From NCBI RefSeq assembly GCF_009939295.1, contig NZ_WVIC01000036.1:1-43036 (forward strand): a stretch of DNA of 43,036 nt, given 5' to 3'. The notes under the pieces were generated by a model that made no database searches, was not told the origin of the DNA, and saw only the letters and a program-made list of their open reading frames with translations. This document shows positions 5,081 to 18,659 of the stretch, in pieces; position 1 is the stretch's first letter, and the number at the start of each line of letters is the position of its first letter. This DNA comes from Petrachloros mirabilis ULC683 (GTDB lineage: Bacteria; Cyanobacteriota; Cyanobacteriia; Thermosynechococcales; Thermosynechococcaceae). The position numbers and the translations under genes were made by a program.

Positions 5081-8000
5081 TTAGATCCTTGTGCGATTAG
5101 GGGTGATTGCCGGAGTTGCCAACAGCACCTCATCTAGCAAAATCGTCTCGCAATAAATCAACCGACTGCCGCGAGGCACAAGGATTGCCACCCCGTCTGC
5201 GGGGAAAGATTCATATTCTGAAATCACTAAGCGGTAGCGATCTGCCTGAACCGAGCCGTTCAGTTTAATCGTGCCTACATATAGCACTGAAGCCGGGAGG
5301 GTGATTGTCGGATCGTTCGGGGTCGGGCTAAATTCTGCTAATTCTGGAGCAGCATCTCGCCATGCTAAATCACCTTGCAAGGTATCATCGCGCTCTTGAA
5401 GTTTGATCAAAATCGTATTGGAGCGCGTGGGTTGGGTGGGTGTAATGCCTGAGATGGCGATGCGTAGCTGTCCGGGCTGGTAGGGGTCAGCGGTTAGCAT
5501 CACCGATCGCTCTGGTGTAAGCTGCACAAAATCTGCCAGCACCACGCGAGAAAGTTTGGCATCCACCAGCGCATAGGGCTGATAGCGCACGAGCGCCAAG
5601 CGCACAAAGGGCGAGTAGGTTGTGCCCGCATCAATGGTTAGATCGCAGTACCATTTCTGCTGCTGGGCATCGAAGGCGACAGGATAGCCAACTACGCCTA
5701 CCCGTTTGCTGGGATCTTCTTCCAGTTTCAAGGACTGCTCTTGAGCGATCGCATCTGGAAAGTCATTGAATTGGGGCACTTGTGAGAGTCCTGGAGTCTG
5801 CCAAATGGGGTCATTGCCCCACTGAGTAATCAAAGATTTCCAGCGATCGCGCTCTCTAGAATCTTCGATATCAACCCCAGACCCATATTGAAAGAGCGTC
5901 ATCCCCAGCAATTCTCCTTCCCCCGAAGAGAACCAAGGGCGCTCTAAATACACCCGCAAGCCACCCCCAAAGCGCACGCTTCGCTTCAAATTTGTCTGGG
6001 TTTGGCGCTGCCAGCCAAAAGTAGGAATTACATAAGCAATTTGGGGCGAAACCGGACGGGCAGAGGCAGGAACCTCTACAGTGATGGGTTGGCTTTTACG
6101 AGTAAAGTCAACCGCTATTTTTTCACCTGGATTCAGCGGATCATCCTGCTCCTGGGGAAAATATTCACGGTAGCGGGATGTGGCAACAGCGGTATAACGC
6201 ACTCGATGATGCTTTGTGTCATTGATCTGATGACGGGGGGCAACATCACTAAAGACAGCATATTTGAACGTATTTCCTTCAAAGATACTGCGGATAAACT
6301 GACCCTGAAGTGGAAATGTGCCAGACTGCAAATTACCTAAGATGTCACCACTTCTGCCAAAGCAAAGTAAATCGTGATCAGCATCGTAATAGCCTATATA
6401 CCGACCATCTGGAGTCACCGTGATTGAGTGATCATTGAGTTGATGAATCGGTATTTCGTCCACAGGAGCCGTATAGTGACGATTCAGATCCTCAATGCGC
6501 TCAATCGTCAGATGCTCAATGGTTAAATCATCCACAGGGTCATCCCATTCAGCAAGAATATCAACCCTGGCGGTGCCGGCTCCATGTACCTGCAAACCAC
6601 CTAGCAAATAGGCATCTGTGCTGTCTAGCAATCGCCATGACGTAATCGGGCTTAATTCCGTTGCTGCCGTTGGGGTTGACTCTGGCATGGTTTGGAGAAA
6701 GTTTGGATCGGGGTTACTCTCGCTGTAAGGAGCCTGATACGGGGCATGTTGGACGCTGATGACAGTGAATTTAGGATTGCCGATCGGCTGTTGCACCGCA
6801 TGAACTAGCTTCAAAAGTTGAGGCGGAGTGAGCATCCAATGTCCACCCTCGACTGCCCGTTGCAAAATGTGGGCAATTTTATCGATGTCCTTGCCGGGAG
6901 CTATTACGTTCTGGTCTGGCGTGGTTGCCGTTTTTTGGTCAATGTATTCTCGCAGCCATTGCCAGACTCCCATCAGTTTCAAGTCATCGGGATGCAGATA
7001 GCTACTCAGAGGGATTACGGCGGTTGTCCCCTTGGGTAAAGAAACGGTCAACACTCGATTTTGAGCATCCCATCGGGGCGCAGCATTGCCTTCTGCCAGC
7101 GCCAGTCGAAAGGGTTGCAGGGTTTGCCAATCTGCGCTATCTCCAAAGCTAATCAGTGTGGCGGAGCCAGAGCGGGGGTTGGGGTCATTCAACGGATCAT
7201 AGGGAACCGAGGCTTCTGGCTCGATTCCAGGCTGAACCGTACCCAGACTGTATGCTGGGGTACCTGGCAGATCTCGCAGGGCGGCTCCCCTTGCCAGCAC
7301 ATCGGGAATATAGGGCAGGGTGTCGATGCGATCGCCTGCTTCTAATGGAAATCTTTGGCTCTCCTGCCCAGCCACCTCTACCTCAACAAAATTCAATTCA
7401 GCGCCATCTTTTGCCACCAGAAGGTCGTACATTGCTGTGCTGCGACTAATTTTGCCAGTGGCATCGTCCAGCATTCCGAGCTTTTCGGCAATTTCGACAC
7501 TGGTGCGGGGTGGCAAGATGTGGCGATCGCTGGCGGTCAGATCTGCTGGGTCTCCATCTTTGGCAGGAGCGCTATTGTAAGTGCGAATCACCAAGCGGTC
7601 AAGCTGGGAGCCAGGTTCAGTTACCCCCTTTGGATCACGCAAAACCACCTGGGGCGAAATCACCGGTTCAAACCGCAAGTATGCTACCCCGTTGGGGTCA
7701 CTGGGCAGGGCAAACAGTCTCGATAGTTGATCAACCAAGGGATGGGTTAACCCAATACAGTTGCCGCAGAGATCCACCACCCGTGCCCGTAGTCGATAGC
7801 GCCGTCCAAACCGCAGGCTGGGGAGGGAACTCCCAACAATTTTGAACTCGGTGGTCATTTTGAAGGGTGTTGCCGGGATATTTTGATCGGTTTTGGCTTG
7901 CAGCAAGGCATTTTCAGGATTGGGATCACTTGATAGCGCCTTATCTGGAAAGGGGACGCTCAAACTCCAACCTGCCCAGCGGGCGATCGCCTCCTGCAAA

Positions 8001-9538
8001 TAAATATCTTTAGGCTGCTCCTTGGATTTATCGGGTGCAGGTTGGGCTGCGGCAAGCTGGGTAAATCCTTCTTCATCGGAGGTGTTAAAGGGTTCACCTT
8101 CCAGGGTGTAGGTGGCATTGCGACGATGCAGGGAATGCCACTGCTGGGTGTGGTTGTCCCAGATGTCAATCCGGTAGCCATGCACCAGGTTTTCGGCATA
8201 AAATGCTTGGGCTTGCTGCTGGTCAAACTGGGTGTTGACGGCTTTTGCCTGCTTCAGTTTACTCAGCAGCTTTTTGCCCCGCTCATCTACATACAACGAA
8301 AAGCCACCCGATCGCATTGCAGGCAGAGTCACCCTCGGATCAAACACCGTGGGATAGGGAGAATCGGCAGGACCGGGGCGATCCTCGCGATCGCGCTGCA
8401 CTGTTTCCGCTAGCATAATCATTTTGTGCATTGCCCCATCCACATCCACCTGCGCTAGGCCAAATTTTTGCGGATTTAAGTAAAGCAAGCCAAATGCTTC
8501 TAATTCAGCCTGTTGCCCTCCGCCCGGCTGATTTGGATCGATGGGTTTGAATGCTTCGGGTGCGGTGAAAAAGATGCGGCTCCCTGACTCCGCTGCGAAG
8601 TGCAGGTATGCCGTTTCTAGCAGTGGCGTGGATGCAGGCGCGATCGCCCATTCCCAGTTAGGAGTTGCCCCCACAACGCTGAGGGTGCCGGGGGTAGCGA
8701 TCGCCACAAAGTCTCTAGGTAGCTCGATATCCATCACTAGCCCCAGCGCTCGCAGCAGTTCGGGATAGGAATTGAGGGAACTAAGCGCCTGGTGAAAATC
8801 GAGCAGGTTTTCAAAGTCTGGGGGGTTATCATTCAGTGGGGTGCCCTGGGGAATTTTTTGGGAGGCAATAAACCCCTTGGCGACATCTGCAAAAATTTGC
8901 TTGTCACGCTCACTTTTTCTGCCCTCCAGCAAGGAAGTAACCGGAATTAATCCGTCCCGATCCAATCTATCTGCTGCCTGGCGCTTTAAGCTCCTTACAC
9001 TCCCCTCTGCACTGCTTTGCAGTTCATAGCGTTGCGGATAGCTGCGCTCCTCATTCCAATTGACTTCTAGCCCTTCCACCAGATTTTGCAATGTTTCGTA
9101 GTGGTTGGCTTCCTGCTGCTGCAATCGCTCCAGTGACTCTGGTAATGCCAGTTCAACGCCTGCTTTTTGATAAATTCCTTTCAGCAACGACAGCGCTGCA
9201 CGAGTGGAAGAAGAAATCACCTGATGATCGGAATAATCATCAAGCTGGTGCGATCGCACCAGGGTGGTGGGCTTAAACAACGCCTCCCACAACTGCGGTT
9301 GCAGAATTTCAGTCGGCACAGCGGCAGTAAAGTCTGCTCCTGCACAGCGAAACGTCAGGCTCAGCCCATCTTCCTTGAGCCGTCGCGTCCAGATAAGCCA
9401 GTCTGGGAATGCCTCTAACCGGGGAGAATCGGGGTCAGCCGTGAGACGGGGAGAGACATACACAGACACGGGCAATCGCTCAGCATCCACACTCATGCCA
9501 CGGGGCACAACGGTGAATAAAATCCTTTGACTTGCCAT
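5081..9538 (-). CDS. Giant uncharacterised protein (1485 aa), second gene of tandem pair
   Basis: I do not recognise a named domain. The 1485-aa protein starts MASQRILFTVVPRGM, with no signal peptide and no membrane helix. Residues about 1-110 are strand-rich, 110-260 are helical with a charged coiled segment, and the rest is mixed beta with many Asp-Pro and Pro-rich turns. A single CxxC (DLCGNC) lies near residue 588, after the strand motif FGRRYRLRARVVDL. The N-terminal pattern (ILFTVVPRG then SVYVSPRL) reminds me of equally large unannotated actinobacterial proteins; this is recall, not a search. The ATG at 9538 is 48 nt after the stop of the other giant gene in the same direction, so they are probably co-transcribed. 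HIP1 sites within the gene indicate long residence in a cyanobacterium. Confidence 0.8.
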   Translation of the reverse strand: MASQRILFTVVPRGMSVDAERLPVSVYVSPRLTADPDSPRLEAFPDWLIWTRRLKEDGLSLTFRCAGADFTAAVPTEILQPQLWEALFKPTTLVRSHQLDDYSDHQVISSSTRAALSLLKGIYQKAGVELALPESLERLQQQEANHYETLQNLVEGLEVNWNEERSYPQRYELQSSAEGSVRSLKRQAADRLDRDGLIPVTSLLEGRKSERDKQIFADVAKGFIASQKIPQGTPLNDNPPDFENLLDFHQALSSLNSYPELLRALGLVMDIELPRDFVAIATPGTLSVVGATPNWEWAIAPASTPLLETAYLHFAAESGSRIFFTAPEAFKPIDPNQPGGGQQAELEAFGLLYLNPQKFGLAQVDVDGAMHKMIMLAETVQRDREDRPGPADSPYPTVFDPRVTLPAMRSGGFSLYVDERGKKLLSKLKQAKAVNTQFDQQQAQAFYAENLVHGYRIDIWDNHTQQWHSLHRRNATYTLEGEPFNTSDEEGFTQLAAAQPAPDKSKEQPKDIYLQEAIARWAGWSLSVPFPDKALSSDPNPENALLQAKTDQNIPATPFKMTTEFKIVGSSLPSLRFGRRYRLRARVVDLCGNCIGLTHPLVDQLSRLFALPSDPNGVAYLRFEPVISPQVVLRDPKGVTEPGSQLDRLVIRTYNSAPAKDGDPADLTASDRHILPPRTSVEIAEKLGMLDDATGKISRSTAMYDLLVAKDGAELNFVEVEVAGQESQRFPLEAGDRIDTLPYIPDVLARGAALRDLPGTPAYSLGTVQPGIEPEASVPYDPLNDPNPRSGSATLISFGDSADWQTLQPFRLALAEGNAAPRWDAQNRVLTVSLPKGTTAVIPLSSYLHPDDLKLMGVWQWLREYIDQKTATTPDQNVIAPGKDIDKIAHILQRAVEGGHWMLTPPQLLKLVHAVQQPIGNPKFTVISVQHAPYQAPYSESNPDPNFLQTMPESTPTAATELSPITSWRLLDSTDAYLLGGLQVHGAGTARVDILAEWDDPVDDLTIEHLTIERIEDLNRHYTAPVDEIPIHQLNDHSITVTPDGRYIGYYDADHDLLCFGRSGDILGNLQSGTFPLQGQFIRSIFEGNTFKYAVFSDVAPRHQINDTKHHRVRYTAVATSRYREYFPQEQDDPLNPGEKIAVDFTRKSQPITVEVPASARPVSPQIAYVIPTFGWQRQTQTNLKRSVRFGGGLRVYLERPWFSSGEGELLGMTLFQYGSGVDIEDSRERDRWKSLITQWGNDPIWQTPGLSQVPQFNDFPDAIAQEQSLKLEEDPSKRVGVVGYPVAFDAQQQKWYCDLTIDAGTTYSPFVRLALVRYQPYALVDAKLSRVVLADFVQLTPERSVMLTADPYQPGQLRIAISGITPTQPTRSNTILIKLQERDDTLQGDLAWRDAAPELAEFSPTPNDPTITLPASVLYVGTIKLNGSVQADRYRLVISEYESFPADGVAILVPRGSRLIYCETILLDEVLLATPAITPNRTRI

Positions 9539-9586
9539 AGGTTATTTCCAAGACTCTTGAGGGTAAAAATTCTGAGCGTGATGCAA

Positions 9587-12500
9587 TTACGCAAAGGCAC
9601 CCGCGTATTCATCCCACAGGGCGGGTATTTCCCAGGTATCTCTGAAGATGGGATCGGCGTTTTTGCCCCCAAACTTCTTCTCAACGGTAATGGCGATCGA
9701 TTTGCTGAAGAATAAAATTTCGACTTTCACCGTCAGGGTGGCGCGACCCGATGCCTTGCCGGTTTTAGATTCATAGGTAAAGCTCAGCAAAAATTCCAGA
9801 GAAACGGAAATGAGTCCCAGAATTGAGAGTTCACCGCCCATGCGGAAGTAGCCCGACAGAGTGGCATAGTCCTTGCTTTCTTTGATCTCTAGCTTGAAAT
9901 AGATACCCGCCATAATGTAAACGCCACCGCTGGCAACGCCCAGGTTAATCGAAACAGACGCGCCAAATTCAAATGCCGCTTCAACGACTCGTAAACCCTG
10001 TTGAGTATCCAACTGCAAATGGAAGAAACCACCGCCGCCAAAAAAGGCAATGGTGAGATTAAACGGATGCTGGCGCTCAGAAATACCAAAGTCAAACACC
10101 GGGTTGCCATCGGCAAAGGGCAGTTCTAGAGCAGCAGACAAGCTCACATCTTTGAGGGCAAACACCCCCACCGCAACCGGCGGCAAACCGATGGCAAACC
10201 CCACGCGAATGCGTTCGGCAGTGATCTCTAAACTAGGTCCCTTACCAAACAGTTCAGGGGGAATGATGTCTTTCAAATCCTCGACAAATTCTAAATCGCC
10301 CTGGAACTTTAAGGGGTTGACTTTTTCAAGTTCGACTTTGACATCTGGCTTCCGATCTGTTTCTGACTTAAACGTGAATGCAACAAAATTCAGCGCCAAA
10401 ACATTCAGAAACGTCAGCTTAAATTGATTCAATCGACCGCTAAATTCTGATCGCCCGGTACCTGCTCCAGTCGGTTTTTCGATGCGGGCATGAATTCTGA
10501 GCCTGCGATCGGGGTCTGTGGATTCAAACTTGAGAAAGTCTGGCCCAAATTGTTGTTTAACTTGGGGTTCCCAGGTCAGCTCAACCGCCGGAGGTGATGC
10601 CTGGGGGAAGGGCTGAATTTTGGGCGCATTCGCAAAGGTGCCACTGTCATCTAGCAATTCACTCAGTTTTAGCTTGCCAAACAGCAGCGCTTTATCTGCC
10701 ACATCCCCAAAGAAGTCCTTGGGATTAAAGGGATCTGGGCTGGCGGCTTTGGCTGGAGTGCCTGCGATCGCCCCTAATTTTCGTGTAATGCTGGTGATCG
10801 ACAAATTAGGTGTGGCAATGCCGCCTGCCTTGTCGGCTGTAAAATTCGATTGAACTTTGTTCACCAGCTCTGCAAATACTTCATTGGCACTATCAAATTT
10901 TTCATTGTTAAGATAGGTATCGAAGTATTTTATTTCGACCGGAGTTGTGGTTCCCAGAATTTGTTCAACGGCGGTTAAATTGACGGCAGCTTTCTCCAGC
11001 TTGGGCAAGAATCCGCCCAAGATCGGATCTGCGGGATGAGTGTCGAAATAGAGCGATCGCGTCGTCAGGGTTGTGTTGTCGCTGGTAGAGCCATCTCGGG
11101 CTGCATACGTGATGGCTTGCCCTGGAACCGTCCCAATTTTCCGCTGAGCATCTCGGTTGTATTCGGCTTTGACCTGAGCAATTTTGCCCGTTTCACTCTT
11201 TGGTACAAAAATAAGTGCCGTCGTGAAATCGATGACATGACGCTCACTGTCTTGCCCCACAGCATGAAATCGGAAGTCCGCTTGATTGACTCTGACCCAG
11301 AAACAATAGTCTGTGCCGCTAATAATCGGTGAAACTCTTGGATCATCAGGGGGCGTTTTTTGGGGCAAGTCAATATCCGGAGTGACTAAAGTCGTCAATC
11401 GCACTTGCTTTAATGGCATTCCCAAGCCTTGATGGGCTAAAGGCTCTCTGGTGTAGTCCTTCAATGGTTCTCGCACCACAATGAACATGCGCTGGGCGAG
11501 ATAGGCGAATGGAGTGCGGTTGACACTCTTGATCTTGCGTTCCGTCACCTTAATCAGCGCGGCGCGGTGCCCAAAGGGATATAGAAAACCTTCGTAAACG
11601 ATGCGAACGTAATGATCGCGTCCCTGGGTGGCCACATGTACCCATTCGGAAATGTTGAGGGCATTGTCTCCCTTCCTGCCCAATCGTCTTAGAAAATTAG
11701 GGGGGTGCAGCAGCCCGGGAATGATTTGATTGCCGAGTCCTGGATCTAACAATCGCATCAAGTCCCCCAGTTCTGGCTTCACTGCCTGGGTATTGATATT
11801 CTCAATCTGAAAGTTAATCGGATTTTCAATAATCAGTCTGGGAATCCACTCTACCGGAGGCTCCCAATTGCCCTGCGACTTGAGCCACCCCCCCAAAGGA
11901 GACAGCATCACCTGTTCTGCTTGAATCGGCAGGGGCCGATAGTCAGGATAGAAGGGGGGAATGTCTTCTACAAAGCCACTAAAAGCAGAGGTGAGAACCA
12001 CCAGCTCATGGCGATCGCGTCGATTCATCGCGGTCAGGACAGGAGAGCCTGCCCACTCATCTGCCTGTCCCAAGATGGGCCAGGGCGGGCGGATGAGCAG
12101 TCCGGGTGCAACGTAGTCGGGGGACCAAATTGCCCTCAGGGGGGCAGGGTTCACCTTTGACAGGGGAGTAATTTTCTCACCGGCTCGTTTGGCTAATCGC
12201 GTGTGCCAGAGTTCGGTTCGCCCTGCATGGGTTTTAGGCTGGGTGGCATGATCCCACACTACCTCCCGATTTGGCGACAGAATCAGCCGATAGGGCATTT
12301 CGATCGCTGTTTCCAGTTCGGTGGGAGGGGCAATTGCCGGGGCATTAGCGCGTTGGTCAGAGGTAGAGGGTTCTGAAATCGCAGCAATGGGTGAAACATT
12401 CAATTCTAGCCCTGTCCAATTCAGTAATCCCGCCGTGGTGTAGGGAATGCGGGGATTGCTGTTCCCAGGCAGTTGAAACACTAAGCGGCTGGGCTGCCCA

Positions 12501-13630
12501 ATTCTGGCGCGTGCCCTGGCTGGCATTTTAGAGTCAGGAAAGCCAGGTGGGGAGGTGTTGTAAGGCTTACTGAGCTCGCTTGGAGGGGGCTGGGCAGGGG
12601 GGGGATCTGGCTCAAAGATTGCTTCTTCGACAATGGTTTGGGGCGGAAACTGTACGATTAGGTATGCCGCTTGGGTGGTATCGGTGGCAACCAGAACCAA
12701 GTTAGTGCGATCGCTCTTATCTAGCTGCAAATTGCGACACTCAATGCGGAGGTTAAGCAAATCATCAGGACGCATTAACTCAACGATCGGATCAACCAAT
12801 GGATCAGTCGGATTCGGCAGTGTTGCAATCTTCGGCGCAACAATATGGGTTAATCCTTGGGGAAAATTGTCATAGAAGTTTAGGTCACGCAAAGCCCCTT
12901 GCTCATCGATGTCTCCCGTTGCGACAACGCCACCAAGATTAGCGCTGTAATACAACACATGCTTCTGAGTTCCGGCGATCTGCGTCCAATTTTTTGAAAG
13001 ACCGGGATAGCTTTGCAGGGGCAAATAATTGCCTAATTCATCCACCAGGCTAACCAGTCCGCCGCCCTCGTTAACGTTATAAAACAGAAAATGCTTTTGG
13101 GTTGAGGCAAGATGAGTCCAGGTTAAGGTTGATCCAGGCGGATAGCGATGGATGAACTGATGATTGCCGTCGGCATCAATTTGTGCGGTTGCCAGTTCTG
13201 TCGTAGTGGCGTTGTAATAGAGTACCCGGTTTTGAGTTGCCTCAATATGGGTCCAGCCAAGGGTGAAATCAGCGTAGGTGTGGAGCGATCGATAGTTGCC
13301 AAAAGTATCTATTGCCCCTATTTCTGCATTGCCTGTATTGGCATCATAGAACATTACATGGTCTTCGGTTGTTGCAAGAGTAGTCCAAGTGGCATTTGCA
13401 GAATAGTGCTGTAAAACTTGATGATTGCCCCTACCATCAATTTGTGCCGTTGCGATTGCAGTTGTGGCGCTGTTGTAATACAACAAACTATCTTTTGTAG
13501 CAACAATATGCGTCCATCCAGCGGTTTCGGTGAATCGTTGTAGAAACCGATGGGTACCGAACTCATCGAGTCCCCCTGTGCTGGATTCGCCTGCGATCGC
13601 ACCATAATAGAGCAGAGCATTGAGAGCCAT
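9587..13630 (-). CDS. Giant protein with N-terminal six-bladed propeller (1347 aa)
   Basis: First gene of the pair. Residues 39-259 hold five tandem 43-45-residue repeats, each starting W-T and carrying a Y/F-Y/D core (for example VLYYNATT) and a D-x-x-G-N turn. A partial unit at 1-38 and a final LTHIVA at 260-265 would complete a sixth blade, as in closed beta-propellers of the tachylectin/tectonin type. A proline-rich linker follows near residue 340. The last 400 residues are alternating amphipathic strands rich in Gly and Phe (FFGGGGFF, VASGGVYIMAGIYF), suggesting a large beta structure, ending LWDEYAGAFA. No signal peptide is visible. ATG 13630 and TTG 13633 share a GAGG motif; ATG is chosen. 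Function unknown; carbohydrate or surface binding by the propeller is inference. Confidence 0.82.
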   Translation of the reverse strand: MALNALLYYGAIAGESSTGGLDEFGTHRFLQRFTETAGWTHIVATKDSLLYYNSATTAIATAQIDGRGNHQVLQHYSANATWTTLATTEDHVMFYDANTGNAEIGAIDTFGNYRSLHTYADFTLGWTHIEATQNRVLYYNATTTELATAQIDADGNHQFIHRYPPGSTLTWTHLASTQKHFLFYNVNEGGGLVSLVDELGNYLPLQSYPGLSKNWTQIAGTQKHVLYYSANLGGVVATGDIDEQGALRDLNFYDNFPQGLTHIVAPKIATLPNPTDPLVDPIVELMRPDDLLNLRIECRNLQLDKSDRTNLVLVATDTTQAAYLIVQFPPQTIVEEAIFEPDPPPAQPPPSELSKPYNTSPPGFPDSKMPARARARIGQPSRLVFQLPGNSNPRIPYTTAGLLNWTGLELNVSPIAAISEPSTSDQRANAPAIAPPTELETAIEMPYRLILSPNREVVWDHATQPKTHAGRTELWHTRLAKRAGEKITPLSKVNPAPLRAIWSPDYVAPGLLIRPPWPILGQADEWAGSPVLTAMNRRDRHELVVLTSAFSGFVEDIPPFYPDYRPLPIQAEQVMLSPLGGWLKSQGNWEPPVEWIPRLIIENPINFQIENINTQAVKPELGDLMRLLDPGLGNQIIPGLLHPPNFLRRLGRKGDNALNISEWVHVATQGRDHYVRIVYEGFLYPFGHRAALIKVTERKIKSVNRTPFAYLAQRMFIVVREPLKDYTREPLAHQGLGMPLKQVRLTTLVTPDIDLPQKTPPDDPRVSPIISGTDYCFWVRVNQADFRFHAVGQDSERHVIDFTTALIFVPKSETGKIAQVKAEYNRDAQRKIGTVPGQAITYAARDGSTSDNTTLTTRSLYFDTHPADPILGGFLPKLEKAAVNLTAVEQILGTTTPVEIKYFDTYLNNEKFDSANEVFAELVNKVQSNFTADKAGGIATPNLSITSITRKLGAIAGTPAKAASPDPFNPKDFFGDVADKALLFGKLKLSELLDDSGTFANAPKIQPFPQASPPAVELTWEPQVKQQFGPDFLKFESTDPDRRLRIHARIEKPTGAGTGRSEFSGRLNQFKLTFLNVLALNFVAFTFKSETDRKPDVKVELEKVNPLKFQGDLEFVEDLKDIIPPELFGKGPSLEITAERIRVGFAIGLPPVAVGVFALKDVSLSAALELPFADGNPVFDFGISERQHPFNLTIAFFGGGGFFHLQLDTQQGLRVVEAAFEFGASVSINLGVASGGVYIMAGIYFKLEIKESKDYATLSGYFRMGGELSILGLISVSLEFLLSFTYESKTGKASGRATLTVKVEILFFSKSIAITVEKKFGGKNADPIFRDTWEIPALWDEYAGAFA

Positions 13631-13678
13631 CAATTTATCCTCGGAGAGGGCTTTTAGAGTTTGACCTTAAATTGTGAA

Positions 13679-14432: not shown

Positions 14433-15872
14433 TTACAGGCGATTGCGGGCTTTGAGGAATAGGTAGCGATCTACCAACTGGCCACTGATTTGGGGGGCAG
14501 GGGCATCTAAGACCAAAACGCCCTTTTGGTTCAGATGGGCGAAGGCCAAACTGCGCTGCTGGCGTAAGTCTAAGGCTACAGCTTGGCTATAGAGGTGTTG
14601 TACCTGCTCTGCGGCTGGCTCGCTGGTCAGTGCCAGTGAACGCTGGGCAATGACATCAATCTGAGGGTCGCGGAGAGTGACACAGAGGGGTAAAAACCGG
14701 GGGGTGAGCTGGGTCATGGCGGTGAGTAGTTCAGAAGATGCGATCGCATCCACCACATCAGTCAGCAACACCACCAAGGCACGCCGGGTGTATTGCCCCA
14801 GCACCCGACTCGCCACCTCCACATAGTTGGACTCGGTTTGCACGGGTTCCAGATTGTAGAGCTTGGCTAAAATAGTCGCCAAGTGAGAGGCACCCGACTG
14901 AGGCCCGACCCAAGTGTGAACAGATTGATCAAAAACCGCCACCCCCACCCGATCGCCCCGACGCAAACCCGCCATCGCCAGGGACAGAGTGGCATTTAGC
15001 GCCCAGTCAAACCGCTTTAGCCCTGCCACCTGAGCAGTCATCAACCGACCCCGATCCAGCAAAATAATAAGGGGCTGATCCCGTTCTGGTTCCAGAAGGC
15101 GAATCAAGGGATGACCCCGCCGCGCAGTGGCCTTCCAGTCAATCAAGCGCACATCATCCCCACTGTTATACTCCCGCAATTCCGAAAATTCTGTGCCCCC
15201 CAAAGCATGACGGCGACGGCGTAAACTCCCCGTGGCCTCCAGGCTTAACCGCACAGACAGCAACCGCAGCCCAATCAAATCTGGGTAAACCTCGACCTCA
15301 GTGGGCAAGGGCAGCCGCCAAGCTCGTTGTACCAAACCCCAAGGGCTCTGGAGCCGCAGCCCCAAGCTGGCCCAGACAAAGGCTCCTCGCCGGGGCGGAA
15401 ACACATGGTAAATCAACTCCGTTTCGGTGCGCGGCTGCAACGATGCCGTGAGAGTATCATGATCAACTTGAAAGGCTGTGGGCACCCCATCCCGGATTTT
15501 GAGCAGCGTTTGGGTGACACCATCGGGATGACCAAGCACCTGTACAAACAGATGAACAGCGTTCTCACGACCAATGGAAAGGCGGCTGTCACAGTGGCGT
15601 TGGATGGCAAGCTGCCACCGTTGAGACTGACTAAAGTCCCAGGCTGCCAAACTCAAAACCCCCAGGTTAAAAGCCACCAGCACCAACCATAGCCCCCACT
15701 GCGTCATCCCGTGCAACCAGGTCAACAGCAGGGGCAGAAGCAGTCCCAAGCTCAGCAACCCATAGAGTCGTAGCGTTGGCAGCGGGTGGGCACGGGTAGG
15801 CTGAACCGGGGTAGGTTGAACAGTTGGGAGAGTCCCAGGTTGTGGCTGCTCAACAAATGAGGAGGTGTTCAT
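14433..15872 (-). CDS. DUF58 domain-containing protein
   Basis: A 479-aa membrane-anchored protein with two adjacent hydrophobic segments near residues 33-75 and the DUF58 signature in the middle: GGTEFSELREYNSGDD followed by RLIDWKATARRGHPLIR. The following segment LIILLDRGRLM occupies the place of a von Willebrand A metal site but lacks the canonical DxSxS, so metal binding is doubtful. DUF58 proteins are usual partners of MoxR ATPases and are thought to act in assembly or quality control of envelope or enzyme complexes. It is the last gene of the four-gene operon and its ATG overlaps the moxR stop (ATGA). Confidence 0.9.
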   Translation of the reverse strand: MNTSSFVEQPQPGTLPTVQPTPVQPTRAHPLPTLRLYGLLSLGLLLPLLLTWLHGMTQWGLWLVLVAFNLGVLSLAAWDFSQSQRWQLAIQRHCDSRLSIGRENAVHLFVQVLGHPDGVTQTLLKIRDGVPTAFQVDHDTLTASLQPRTETELIYHVFPPRRGAFVWASLGLRLQSPWGLVQRAWRLPLPTEVEVYPDLIGLRLLSVRLSLEATGSLRRRRHALGGTEFSELREYNSGDDVRLIDWKATARRGHPLIRLLEPERDQPLIILLDRGRLMTAQVAGLKRFDWALNATLSLAMAGLRRGDRVGVAVFDQSVHTWVGPQSGASHLATILAKLYNLEPVQTESNYVEVASRVLGQYTRRALVVLLTDVVDAIASSELLTAMTQLTPRFLPLCVTLRDPQIDVIAQRSLALTSEPAAEQVQHLYSQAVALDLRQQRSLAFAHLNQKGVLVLDAPAPQISGQLVDRYLFLKARNRL

Positions 15873-16810
15873 CTTGGCACCGGTACCCGAGCCAGCAGAT
15901 TACGGATCACCTGAGCCATAGACACCCCATCTAACTGGGCTTCAGGTTTAAGAATGAATCGGTGCTGCAAGAGGGGAAGAGCCAGTGCTTTGAGATCATC
16001 TGGGGTGACAAAGGGGCGATTGGCCAGCCATGCCCGTGCCTGAGATGCTCGCAGCCATCCTACCGCAGCGCGGGGCGAGGCTCCCAACATCAACTCGGGT
16101 TGTTGGCGACTGGCAGTGACCAACGCCAATAAATAATCTTGCACCGGTTCCTCCACCCTAACCTGGCGCACCTGCTGTCGTGCGGCCAAGACTTGCTCCA
16201 CCGTGAGCAGGGGCTGAGACTGCCACTGATCAGCCTGCCGGGGGTCAAACCCTGCCAGGACGTTTTGCAGCATTTGCTTTTCGGCAGACAACTCCGGATA
16301 GGACACCACTAGCTTGAGTAAAAAGCGATCCAGTTGGGCTTCAGGAAGGGGATAGGTACCCTCGAATTCCAGGGGGTTTTGGGTAGCAATCGTCCAAAAG
16401 AGGGGCGACAGCGCCAGCGAATTGCCGTCTAGGGTCACTTGTCGTTCTTCCATGGCTTCCAGGAGAGCGGCTTGGGTTTTGGGAGGCGTCCGATTGATTT
16501 CGTCGGCCAGGAGTACCTGGGTGAAAATTGGGCCTTTGCGTAGGGTAAAGCTGTGGCTGTTAAAGTCAAAAATACTGGTGCCCAAAATATCGGCGGGCAG
16601 CACGTCGGGGGTGAGCTGAATGCGGCGAAAGTCGGCTTGCAGCAGAGTGGCCATCGCTTTGACCAGCAGAGTTTTAGCCGTCCCTGGTACCCCTTCTAAA
16701 ATCACATGGCCTTCGGCTAGTAAGCCTACGGTGAGCCCTTCGACGATGTTTGCCTGTCCCAGGACAATTTGTCCTAGAGCCTGCTGAAGTTCAGTAAATA
16801 CTGCGTTCAA
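15869..16810 (-). CDS. MoxR family AAA+ ATPase
   Basis: A 313-aa AAA+ ATPase. Walker A is GVPGTAKT at 40-47, Walker B is LADEIN at 101-106, and the MoxR-typical IATQNPLEFEGTYPLPEAQ segment follows, with a C-terminal lid domain. MoxR ATPases act as chaperones that insert cofactors or mature complexes together with von Willebrand A proteins. The start is a TTG at 16810 sharing TTGA with the stop of the upstream gene, with GAGG six bases before it; the first in-frame ATG comes only after Walker A, so the TTG is well supported. The client is not evident from the neighbours. Confidence 0.94.
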   Translation of the reverse strand: MNAVFTELQQALGQIVLGQANIVEGLTVGLLAEGHVILEGVPGTAKTLLVKAMATLLQADFRRIQLTPDVLPADILGTSIFDFNSHSFTLRKGPIFTQVLLADEINRTPPKTQAALLEAMEERQVTLDGNSLALSPLFWTIATQNPLEFEGTYPLPEAQLDRFLLKLVVSYPELSAEKQMLQNVLAGFDPRQADQWQSQPLLTVEQVLAARQQVRQVRVEEPVQDYLLALVTASRQQPELMLGASPRAAVGWLRASQARAWLANRPFVTPDDLKALALPLLQHRFILKPEAQLDGVSMAQVIRNLLARVPVPR

Positions 16811-17991
16811 AATTGGCCTCGCAACAGAGACTCGGCTCGACTCAACCAGGCCAAGAAGTCACGGTCTCGCAATCGTTGAGTCTGCCGAGAGGGCTTTAAA
16901 AAATTTAGTAGGTCTTGGGGGGGACGTCCAGTGGCTTGTCCCCACGCCTGCGCCAAGGTCGGATCGTCGGGCAATACAGACTGCCCCGAACCTGGAGCCA
17001 TCAGCCCCAACTGGTCTGCCAGTTGTTGCCGCACCCAGTCTTGGAGCTGCTCTATGACAAAGGCGCTGTGCCCAGCAGCATTGAGCGTCGCTGCCAGAGA
17101 TTGAATGTAGGTTTCACTATTATTGGAGGCTTTGACAATGGGTCGCCAAACCTGGCCAAAGCGATGATTGCCGGTCCACAACAGCAGCGCCAAGATCACC
17201 AGGATTTGGCCAGCGACGACCCCAAGGGGGGTTTGAGCCAAATAGGCAAAGACAGTGGGAGCTGAATCCTGGGACAGCGGGGAGTCATCCGCCAACTCGT
17301 CTCGATGACCATGCACCCACTCATCCACCCATAGGTTGCCCGATTGTCGCTGAACTAGTTGGGTTAGCAGTTCATAATTCCCTGGCTGATCGGCGTAAAT
17401 ATTGGCCGCCAACCAGGGATAGGTGGCAAACACCATACTGCCCTGGCCATGGCGCTCTGACCACACCACTGCTCCATAGCTATCCTGAAGTTCTAGTTGT
17501 CGCTGCACACCATCGGCTGGGGACACCATCCGCCGGGTGGTCTCCACCTGCACCGCTCCCTCAGGGCTGGGTACCTGGCTGTTAAAGGGGGCAGCCGTTA
17601 ACTGTCCTGCCCAGGTGAAGCGAATCACGGTATTGCCAGCTTTAACCCAGTCCCGCAGGGCTGACTCTGCTGAACTCGTGGGTGGATTGACCGGTGTCTC
17701 GCCCCAGACTTGCAGAAGTGCCTGTCCGGTGCCCGAGAGCTGATCATAGGGACGCTGCCAGCGCTGCACGGAGATGTCCTGCGCTAAGGCGAACTCATAC
17801 CAGGCCCGATAGCCCGTCAGCCCTCGCCCGTAGGTTGATCCCCCCTGGGGTTGGGGCGCACTGAAAAAAAGCACTGCCAAGGCCATCCCCCCTGCCAAGA
17901 TTAACCCCAACCATAGCCAACGAGATCCTCGCCGAGTTGCAGGCGAGGGCGGTACAGGCGTTGGGGGAGGGGCGCTTAGGGTTGGACTCAT
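16807..17991 (-). CDS. DUF4350 domain-containing membrane protein
   Basis: A 394-aa protein with a proline-rich N terminus, a membrane helix (WLWLGLILAGGMALAVLFF), an external domain with a typical DUF4350 layout (YGRGLTGYRAWYEF near the start), and a second helix (GVVAGQILVILALLLW) before a cytoplasmic tail. DUF4350 proteins occur in MoxR/DUF58 operons. The ATG at 17991 overlaps the stop of the DUF4129 gene as ATGA; a GTG at 18042 would add 17 residues inside the upstream gene and is less likely. Function is inferred only from the operon. Confidence 0.82.
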   Translation of the reverse strand: MSPTLSAPPPTPVPPSPATRRGSRWLWLGLILAGGMALAVLFFSAPQPQGGSTYGRGLTGYRAWYEFALAQDISVQRWQRPYDQLSGTGQALLQVWGETPVNPPTSSAESALRDWVKAGNTVIRFTWAGQLTAAPFNSQVPSPEGAVQVETTRRMVSPADGVQRQLELQDSYGAVVWSERHGQGSMVFATYPWLAANIYADQPGNYELLTQLVQRQSGNLWVDEWVHGHRDELADDSPLSQDSAPTVFAYLAQTPLGVVAGQILVILALLLWTGNHRFGQVWRPIVKASNNSETYIQSLAATLNAAGHSAFVIEQLQDWVRQQLADQLGLMAPGSGQSVLPDDPTLAQAWGQATGRPPQDLLNFLKPSRQTQRLRDRDFLAWLSRAESLLRGQF

Positions 17992-18659
17992 GACTGTGGC
18001 GATCGCAGCTCTGCTGCTAGGACTTGATAGGCTTGCTGACACTGCTGGAACAGGGGAGCCTCCACGGGCTGTGCTCCGTAGTACGCAGTCTCATGGGCTT
18101 GAATGATTTGCCGCCAGTGTTGGGCAATCTGTACAGAATGCTGAGGTTGCATCCCTAACAAAGCCTCTAACTGCTGAAGATATTCTTGATCGGTTCCAGC
18201 GGCATTTTGAGCCAGCCAGCCCAGGGCTTCGAGGTGTTGTAATAGAGCCATATACAGCGCCCGAAGTGCTGCTGTATAGTCCTGTTGCTGCTGCAATTGC
18301 TGCGCTGCTGCCAGCCATTGCGCGACCGTTCGAGTTGTTTCTACTGGGCGTTGCCATTGAGCGGGAACTGCGGGGCGAGATCGGAGCCAACGCCCCTGGA
18401 GCTGCCGGCAGCCCCAAAATAACACCCCTGCCACCAAAACGACGGCCAGCACTCGCACCCCCCACTGCAATAGTGTCTCTAGCCAGGGGGGAGGGGCTTG
18501 ATCTGAGGCACCTTCGGCCTGCCACCATTGCTGGAGTTGGAATTGCACCCACTCTCCAATTTGCCGGAGCCAGCTTTGCCCCTGCCACAGCAGCCGATCG
18601 ATATGGGATGGCATCATGGCCAAAACCATTGCCAGGGTGGGTCGAGCTTGACCTTCCAT
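17988..18659 (-). CDS. DUF4129 domain-containing protein
   Basis: First gene of the MoxR operon, about 223 aa from the ATG at 18659. It has an amphipathic N-terminal region, one membrane helix ([17 protein letters not shown]), and a C-terminal DUF4129 domain recognised by [19 protein letters not shown] followed by [11 protein letters not shown]. Many residues are Gln, giving low-complexity helices. In other bacteria DUF4129 is often fused to a transglutaminase-like domain; none is present here. Start uncertain: ATGs at 18614, 18617 and 18629 are also possible, and would leave more room for the divergent panD promoter, since the gap to panD from 18659 is only 32 bp. Confidence 0.8.

Follow-up and report, generated by a model that had tools for sequence, protein, structure and literature searches.

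An obligate pair of giant beta-rich proteins from at least 15 bacterial phyla, with twin-arginine signals in part of the family

What do two giant neighbouring proteins without recognizable domains do in a cyanobacterium? The question is raised by a 43,036-nucleotide stretch of DNA from Petrachloros mirabilis ULC683 (contig NZ_WVIC01000036.1 of assembly GCF_009939295.1), here called the window, which belongs to a genome of 4.12 Mb and contains the tandem genes A and B. An initial annotation, made from the sequence alone, described them as codirectional giant open reading frames (ORFs) of 1485 and 1347 amino acids (aa) located 48 nucleotides apart, which the ORF list bears out. The ORF of B is listed as 9587..13633 with a TTG start, and translation from the ATG at 13630 gives the 1347-residue protein. 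Because both genes are on the minus strand, B is the upstream gene and is transcribed first.

9587–13630, minus strand: gene B, the upstream gene, 1347 aa with the ATG at 13630 as start
9539–9586, minus strand: gap of 48 nucleotides between B and A
5081–9538, minus strand: gene A, second gene of the pair, 1485 aa with an ATG start

A and B constitute an obligate, codirectional, co-inherited two-gene unit of unrelated proteins. A profile built from nine A proteins identified 390 A-encoding stretches in contigs representing one genome per species, and the best 80 of the 390 were kept; a single-sequence scan of such contigs with B yielded no relatives. With homologous pairs in hundreds of genomes, the two ORFs are real, far beyond chance. 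In all 77 loci that are complete enough for measurement, B immediately precedes A on the same strand, and the gap between them ranges from −4 to 197 nucleotides, with a median of 15, and is at most 60 nucleotides in 70 of the 77. As A had served to find these loci, searches with a B profile tested the opposite direction. The B and A profiles identified the same two of 386 cyanobacterial genomes, each with both genes, and no genome with one alone. Ten whole genomes of different phyla each contain one A and one B place, adjacent to each other (a few matches are in pieces). The plasmid records matched by B are largely those matched by A, and the additional ones that were checked contain giant pairs. 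The distances among A proteins correlate with those among B proteins with r = 0.86 over 63 loci (permutation maximum 0.125); therefore, the two genes are inherited together. The initial annotation suggested studying the neighbourhoods of homologues and considered that these might never occur together; throughout the measured loci, the ten genomes, and the cyanobacterial set they always do. The possibility that A and B are duplicates of one another was rejected, as a comparison of their profiles shows no relation. A conserved third gene was likewise rejected, as clustering of the neighbours yielded generic enzymes and two small groups of exported proteins only. These two groups recur downstream of A (loci L053, L058, L064, L071, and L078; L056, L057, L060, and L079), in Actinomycetota and in Balneolota/Kapaibacteria; several of their members have Sec-type signals, and the two members that were scanned have no Pfam match.

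Do the proteins belong to a family that has already been described? A known family with a defined function was looked for in Pfam, NCBIfam, PHROGs, PADLOC, and the sequences of the PDB, and none was found. The cores of A and B have no meaningful match in Pfam-A, NCBIfam, PADLOC, or the PDB sequences, and PHROGs provides weak matches only. Matches above the curated cut-offs of Pfam, NCBIfam, and PADLOC are restricted to accessory inserts and never include the conserved cores. The window proteins contain no Pfam domain of any kind, in agreement with the earlier observation that they lack a recognized catalytic domain. A literature search found no description of the family, and a viral fold library contains no match at E ≤ 0.001. 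In view of the missing match to any known family or system, we regard the proteins as new, a judgement that does not extend to their function. A phage origin was rejected: tblastn found 0 matches in 50,697 phage records, and the carriers are mostly bacterial genomes. One "viral" contig contains an A–B pair.

Signals for export are present in part of the family. Twin-arginine (Tat) signals are visible at the N-termini of many B proteins, for example ISRRKFLSYAGILGATPVIGQ (L030) and GGISRRQLFHLAGAAAVAVHL (L072). A test requiring the motif plus a hydrophobic stretch was applied to 80 B proteins, 89 A proteins, and 744 other genes from the same loci, and it identified a Tat signal in 24, 0, and 37 of them, respectively; L043 is doubtful among the 24, and L067 was missed by the test and recognized by eye. 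All five giant B proteins encoded by alphaproteobacterial plasmids have the signal. A TatA-like gene directly follows A in two distant lineages, Symbiobacteriaceae (L072, 13892–14077) and S. meliloti LMB1 (L111, 19637–19804). About eight changes of the B signal are placed on the tree of 65 B cores, and the Tat signal has therefore been gained or lost several times. The export of a signal-less partner together with one that has a Tat signal is an established mechanism, exemplified by HybOC and PaoABC (PMC4273604). The Tat-bearing part of the A–B family resembles these hitchhikers, the Escherichia coli HybOC hydrogenase-2 and PaoABC, in that one subunit has a Tat signal and its co-encoded partner does not. 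By contrast, A and B are not redox enzymes, contain 900–3300 residues each, have no recognized cofactor domain, and B of the window lacks a signal. For part of the family, Tat export by means of the B signal, with A as a passenger, is strongly indicated. The initial statement that the proteins have no signal peptide is correct for the window pair, in which none is visible and the longest B ORF starts directly with a repeat domain; it does not apply to the family, in which about 24 of 80 B proteins have Tat signals.

The signal-less members, including those of the window, could instead be cytoplasmic machines, and some lineages could have acquired the Tat signals later. No A protein has a signal, and 42 of the 65 cores in the tree, the window clade included, come from B proteins scored as lacking one. 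However, signal-less members from Frankia (L029), Streptomyces (L012), and Arthrobacter (L085) have peptidoglycan-binding domains within or next to them; such domains would make little sense in the cytoplasm, and we consider this explanation unlikely.

The structures of both proteins were predicted with AlphaFold for members of the family, as the initial annotation had recommended, and the models bear out its impression that both are beta-rich. The mean predicted local distance difference test (pLDDT) score of the B core is 83, and that of an A homologue from Nonomuraea is 89. Projected onto the window, the parts are as follows (Ig, immunoglobulin).

12797–13630, minus strand: N-terminal 278 aa of B, about six repeats of about 43–46 aa, a putative lectin-like beta-propeller
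9590–12796, minus strand: conserved core of B, aa 279–1347, homologous to the core of the 80 collected B proteins
9650–10264, minus strand: C-terminal antiparallel sheet of B, aa 1123–1327, with strictly alternating hydrophobic/polar strands, similar to outer-membrane proteins in fold comparison
5144–6790, minus strand: C-terminal part of A, aa 917–1465, Ig/fibronectin-III (Fn3)-like beta-sandwiches, mapped from the Nonomuraea homologue model

Residues 876–1080 of the B model, which correspond to aa 1123–1327 of window B, form long antiparallel strands in which purely aliphatic or aromatic positions alternate with small or polar ones across 65 sequences. In comparisons with VIA-align 2, the sheet matches CymA with a Z of 12.8 and a root-mean-square deviation (rmsd) of 8.3 over 196 residues, and MtrB with a Z of 11.5 and an rmsd of 3.2 over 195 residues. 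The C-terminal 200 or so residues of B thus contain strands similar to the walls of outer-membrane barrels such as CymA, MtrB, and LptD. In contrast to these barrels, B has no visible Sec signal, its last strand is followed by two helices and a conserved W..YC.AFA chain end instead of a barrel-closing strand, it is also encoded by Bacillota (Paenibacillus) and many Actinomycetota, and many B proteins would cross the membrane folded by Tat. Because the chain ends in conserved helices, monoderms carry B, and some members would leave the cytoplasm in the folded state, B is unlikely to be a conventional outer-membrane porin.

The curved sheet of B could alternatively provide a groove of the A–B complex in which lipids or hydrocarbons are handled or stored. 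One face of the sheet is purely hydrophobic over many strands, phospholipases adjoin some pairs, and Foldseek weakly matches B to LptD, microsomal triglyceride transfer protein, and OrfX1–OrfX3. However, the TM-scores of these matches are about 0.1 or lower, VIA-align places porins first, and the pair has no conserved lipid-metabolism neighbour; a carrier of hydrophobic compounds appears rather improbable. The clostridial OrfX/P47 (TULIP) proteins are large, beta-rich, and encoded in tandem, and they lack signal peptides. A and B share their size, beta-rich character, and tandem arrangement, and one weak Foldseek row links them to B (E 0.016, TM about 0.1); they differ in that neither A nor B has a sequence match to OrfX/P47.

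The C-terminal third of the A model resembles Ig/Fn3 sandwiches, with the best match to the Ig-like domain of PorU (Z 9.7, 98 residues, rmsd 2.6) and several further Fn3 rows at Z 8–9. As modelled, this row of beta-sandwiches is similar to those of surface proteins such as fibronectin, bacterial adhesins, and PorU; unlike them, A shows no sequence relationship, and the first 780 or so residues of the model have no convincing fold match in a comparison that is weak on long multidomain models and barely covers residues 1–780 of the A model and 1–875 of the B model. The VIA-align rows beyond those for porins and Fn3 are compatible with further folds.

What, then, might the proteins bind? The N-terminus of B is variable: it may have nothing before the core, a Tat signal, a domain of about 400 aa common to at least 19 members, a YncE/lactonase-like propeller (L022), or the approximately six repeats of the window protein. 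The repeats stand in place of the domain of about 400 aa or the Tat signal of other B proteins, and they have no sequence match in the PDB. Since this putative lectin-like module occupies the position of the signal or the larger domain, the specificity of the window pair would most likely be glycan binding. A similar repeat domain is present in an N,N-dimethylformamidase-type protein of Streptomyces avidinii (H13, NZ_CP108617.1 81095–81892).

A proteins also contain accessory modules. That of S. nigrescens has PG_binding_1 inside the protein, that of Frankia (L029, 14015–16465) has PG_binding_1 and phospholipase D (PLD) fused at its C-terminus, that of Kitasatospora has a bacterial Ig-like domain (Big_3_5), and that of Paenibacillus has TPR. 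A of Streptoalloteichus (L039, 14051–14926) includes an insert of about 290 aa composed of repeated Cys-pair motifs, zinc-ribbon-like and lacking a Pfam match. The genes adjoining some pairs encode M23 peptidase and lysozyme-like proteins with peptidoglycan-binding domains, subtilase, Ig-like proteins, Zn-phospholipase C, patatin, and a type IX secretion system (T9SS) adhesin-like protein (CHU_C/LamG); the phospholipase neighbours are from single loci each and may be due to chance.

Such modules could belong to an antagonistic weapon, a secreted toxin-like assembly directed against other cells, in which B would insert into membranes or bind lipids, A would be the scaffold, and the swapped modules (PLD, peptidoglycan-binding, and lectin propellers) would act as effectors or aim the assembly. 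The PLD and peptidoglycan-binding domains fused to A of Frankia, the genes for peptidoglycan hydrolases, subtilase, and phospholipases next to several pairs, the amphipathic B sheet with its porin-like curvature, and a patchy, plasmid-borne, horizontally mobile distribution are consistent with this possibility. However, the pair has no conserved immunity gene next to it, effector domains are absent from most loci, and there is no match to a PADLOC family or to a named toxin family of Pfam; a weapon is thus not what we expect the pair to be.

The reading that we prefer, with slightly less than even confidence, is that A and B assemble as subunits into a single large beta-rich complex that is exported by Tat in part of the family and acts at the envelope or cell surface. 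A and B would form one large folded complex, and in the Tat-bearing members the signal on B would carry it across the membrane with A as a hitchhiker. Outside the cytoplasm, the complex would be located at cell envelopes or act on them. The C-terminal amphipathic sheet of B may bind lipid or membrane or form a packing surface for A, the Ig/Fn3-like part of A may serve as a scaffold or binding arm, and the exchangeable modules (propellers, peptidoglycan-binding, Ig, TPR, and PLD) would set the target. Candidate routes for the signal-less version of the window are non-classical release, lysis, or a cytoplasmic role. The surface or extracellular machine imagined in the initial annotation is thus supported indirectly, by the Tat signals of many B proteins and by fused or neighbouring domains directed at peptidoglycan, glycans, or lipids; for the window member, whose own B is signal-less, such a location is inferred. 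Several observations weigh against an exported envelope complex. Most loci have no operon neighbour, and most pairs, that of the window included, lack adjoining genes of the kinds listed above, so that fewer than half of the members account for the envelope theme. The fold similarities are partial and may have arisen by convergence, and neither A nor B shows a recognizable conserved catalytic motif. Window B with its 10-row clade, and a 13-row group from Actinomycetota, Bacillota, and Chloroflexota, have no Tat or other signal.

How did the pair come to be in P. mirabilis? The family is sporadically distributed, and loci with a stated phylum represent 15 phyla, including Actinomycetota, Pseudomonadota, Chloroflexota, Acidobacteriota, Bacillota, Bacteroidota, Balneolota, and Cyanobacteriota. 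The initial annotation mentioned unannotated pairs in actinobacteria and proposed a widely spread two-component protein system; homologous pairs indeed occur in Actinomycetota and in at least 14 other phyla, unannotated and with constant pairing. Relatives were also found by tblastn on plasmids of Streptomyces, Cupriavidus, Diaphorobacter, and Rhizobium. The A–B unit moves horizontally between phyla, according to the sequence data. In the B-core tree, the nearest relatives of window B are from Methylobacter, with a core identity of 70%, and from Nostoc. Genomes of the window's family supplied four regions adjoining the DUF58 gene, and the two that were read gene by gene both contain unrelated genes at the place of the pair, beside the same DUF58 gene. 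Therefore, the window copy is most likely an import. The DUF58 gene belongs to a DUF58/MoxR ATPase/DUF4350 operon at 14433–18042 of the window, upstream of the pair, and DUF58 homologues are present in nearly all the relatives searched.

A giant variant is encoded on conjugative or large plasmids of Sinorhizobium, Rhizobium, Agrobacterium, and Ruegeria (L111, 5113–19804; L112–L115), with B proteins of about 2280–3310 aa and A proteins of about 1260–1900 aa. At three loci (L024, 8029–14263; L011, 12764–17087; L078, 6150–9216), B, and in L024 also A, is in two reading frames, owing to decay or sequencing error.

Two of the larger proteins of many soil and water bacteria thus form a family that is missing from the family libraries searched, despite its occurrence in at least 15 phyla. 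The constant pairing and the exchangeable modules suggest an envelope device of general use, the target of which may be readable from the add-on domains. If the Tat model is true, few Tat passengers would match the size of the complex (about 250–300 kDa, and more than 500 kDa in the rhizobial variants), which would provide a test of the maximum folded load of the Tat pathway. More speculatively, and with considerable doubt, the family may represent a widespread class of two-subunit giant machines of about 250–550 kDa that are exported folded by Tat in many lineages, one subunit riding on the other and some with a TatA of their own, and that are retargeted by their modules to the membranes or walls of other cells.
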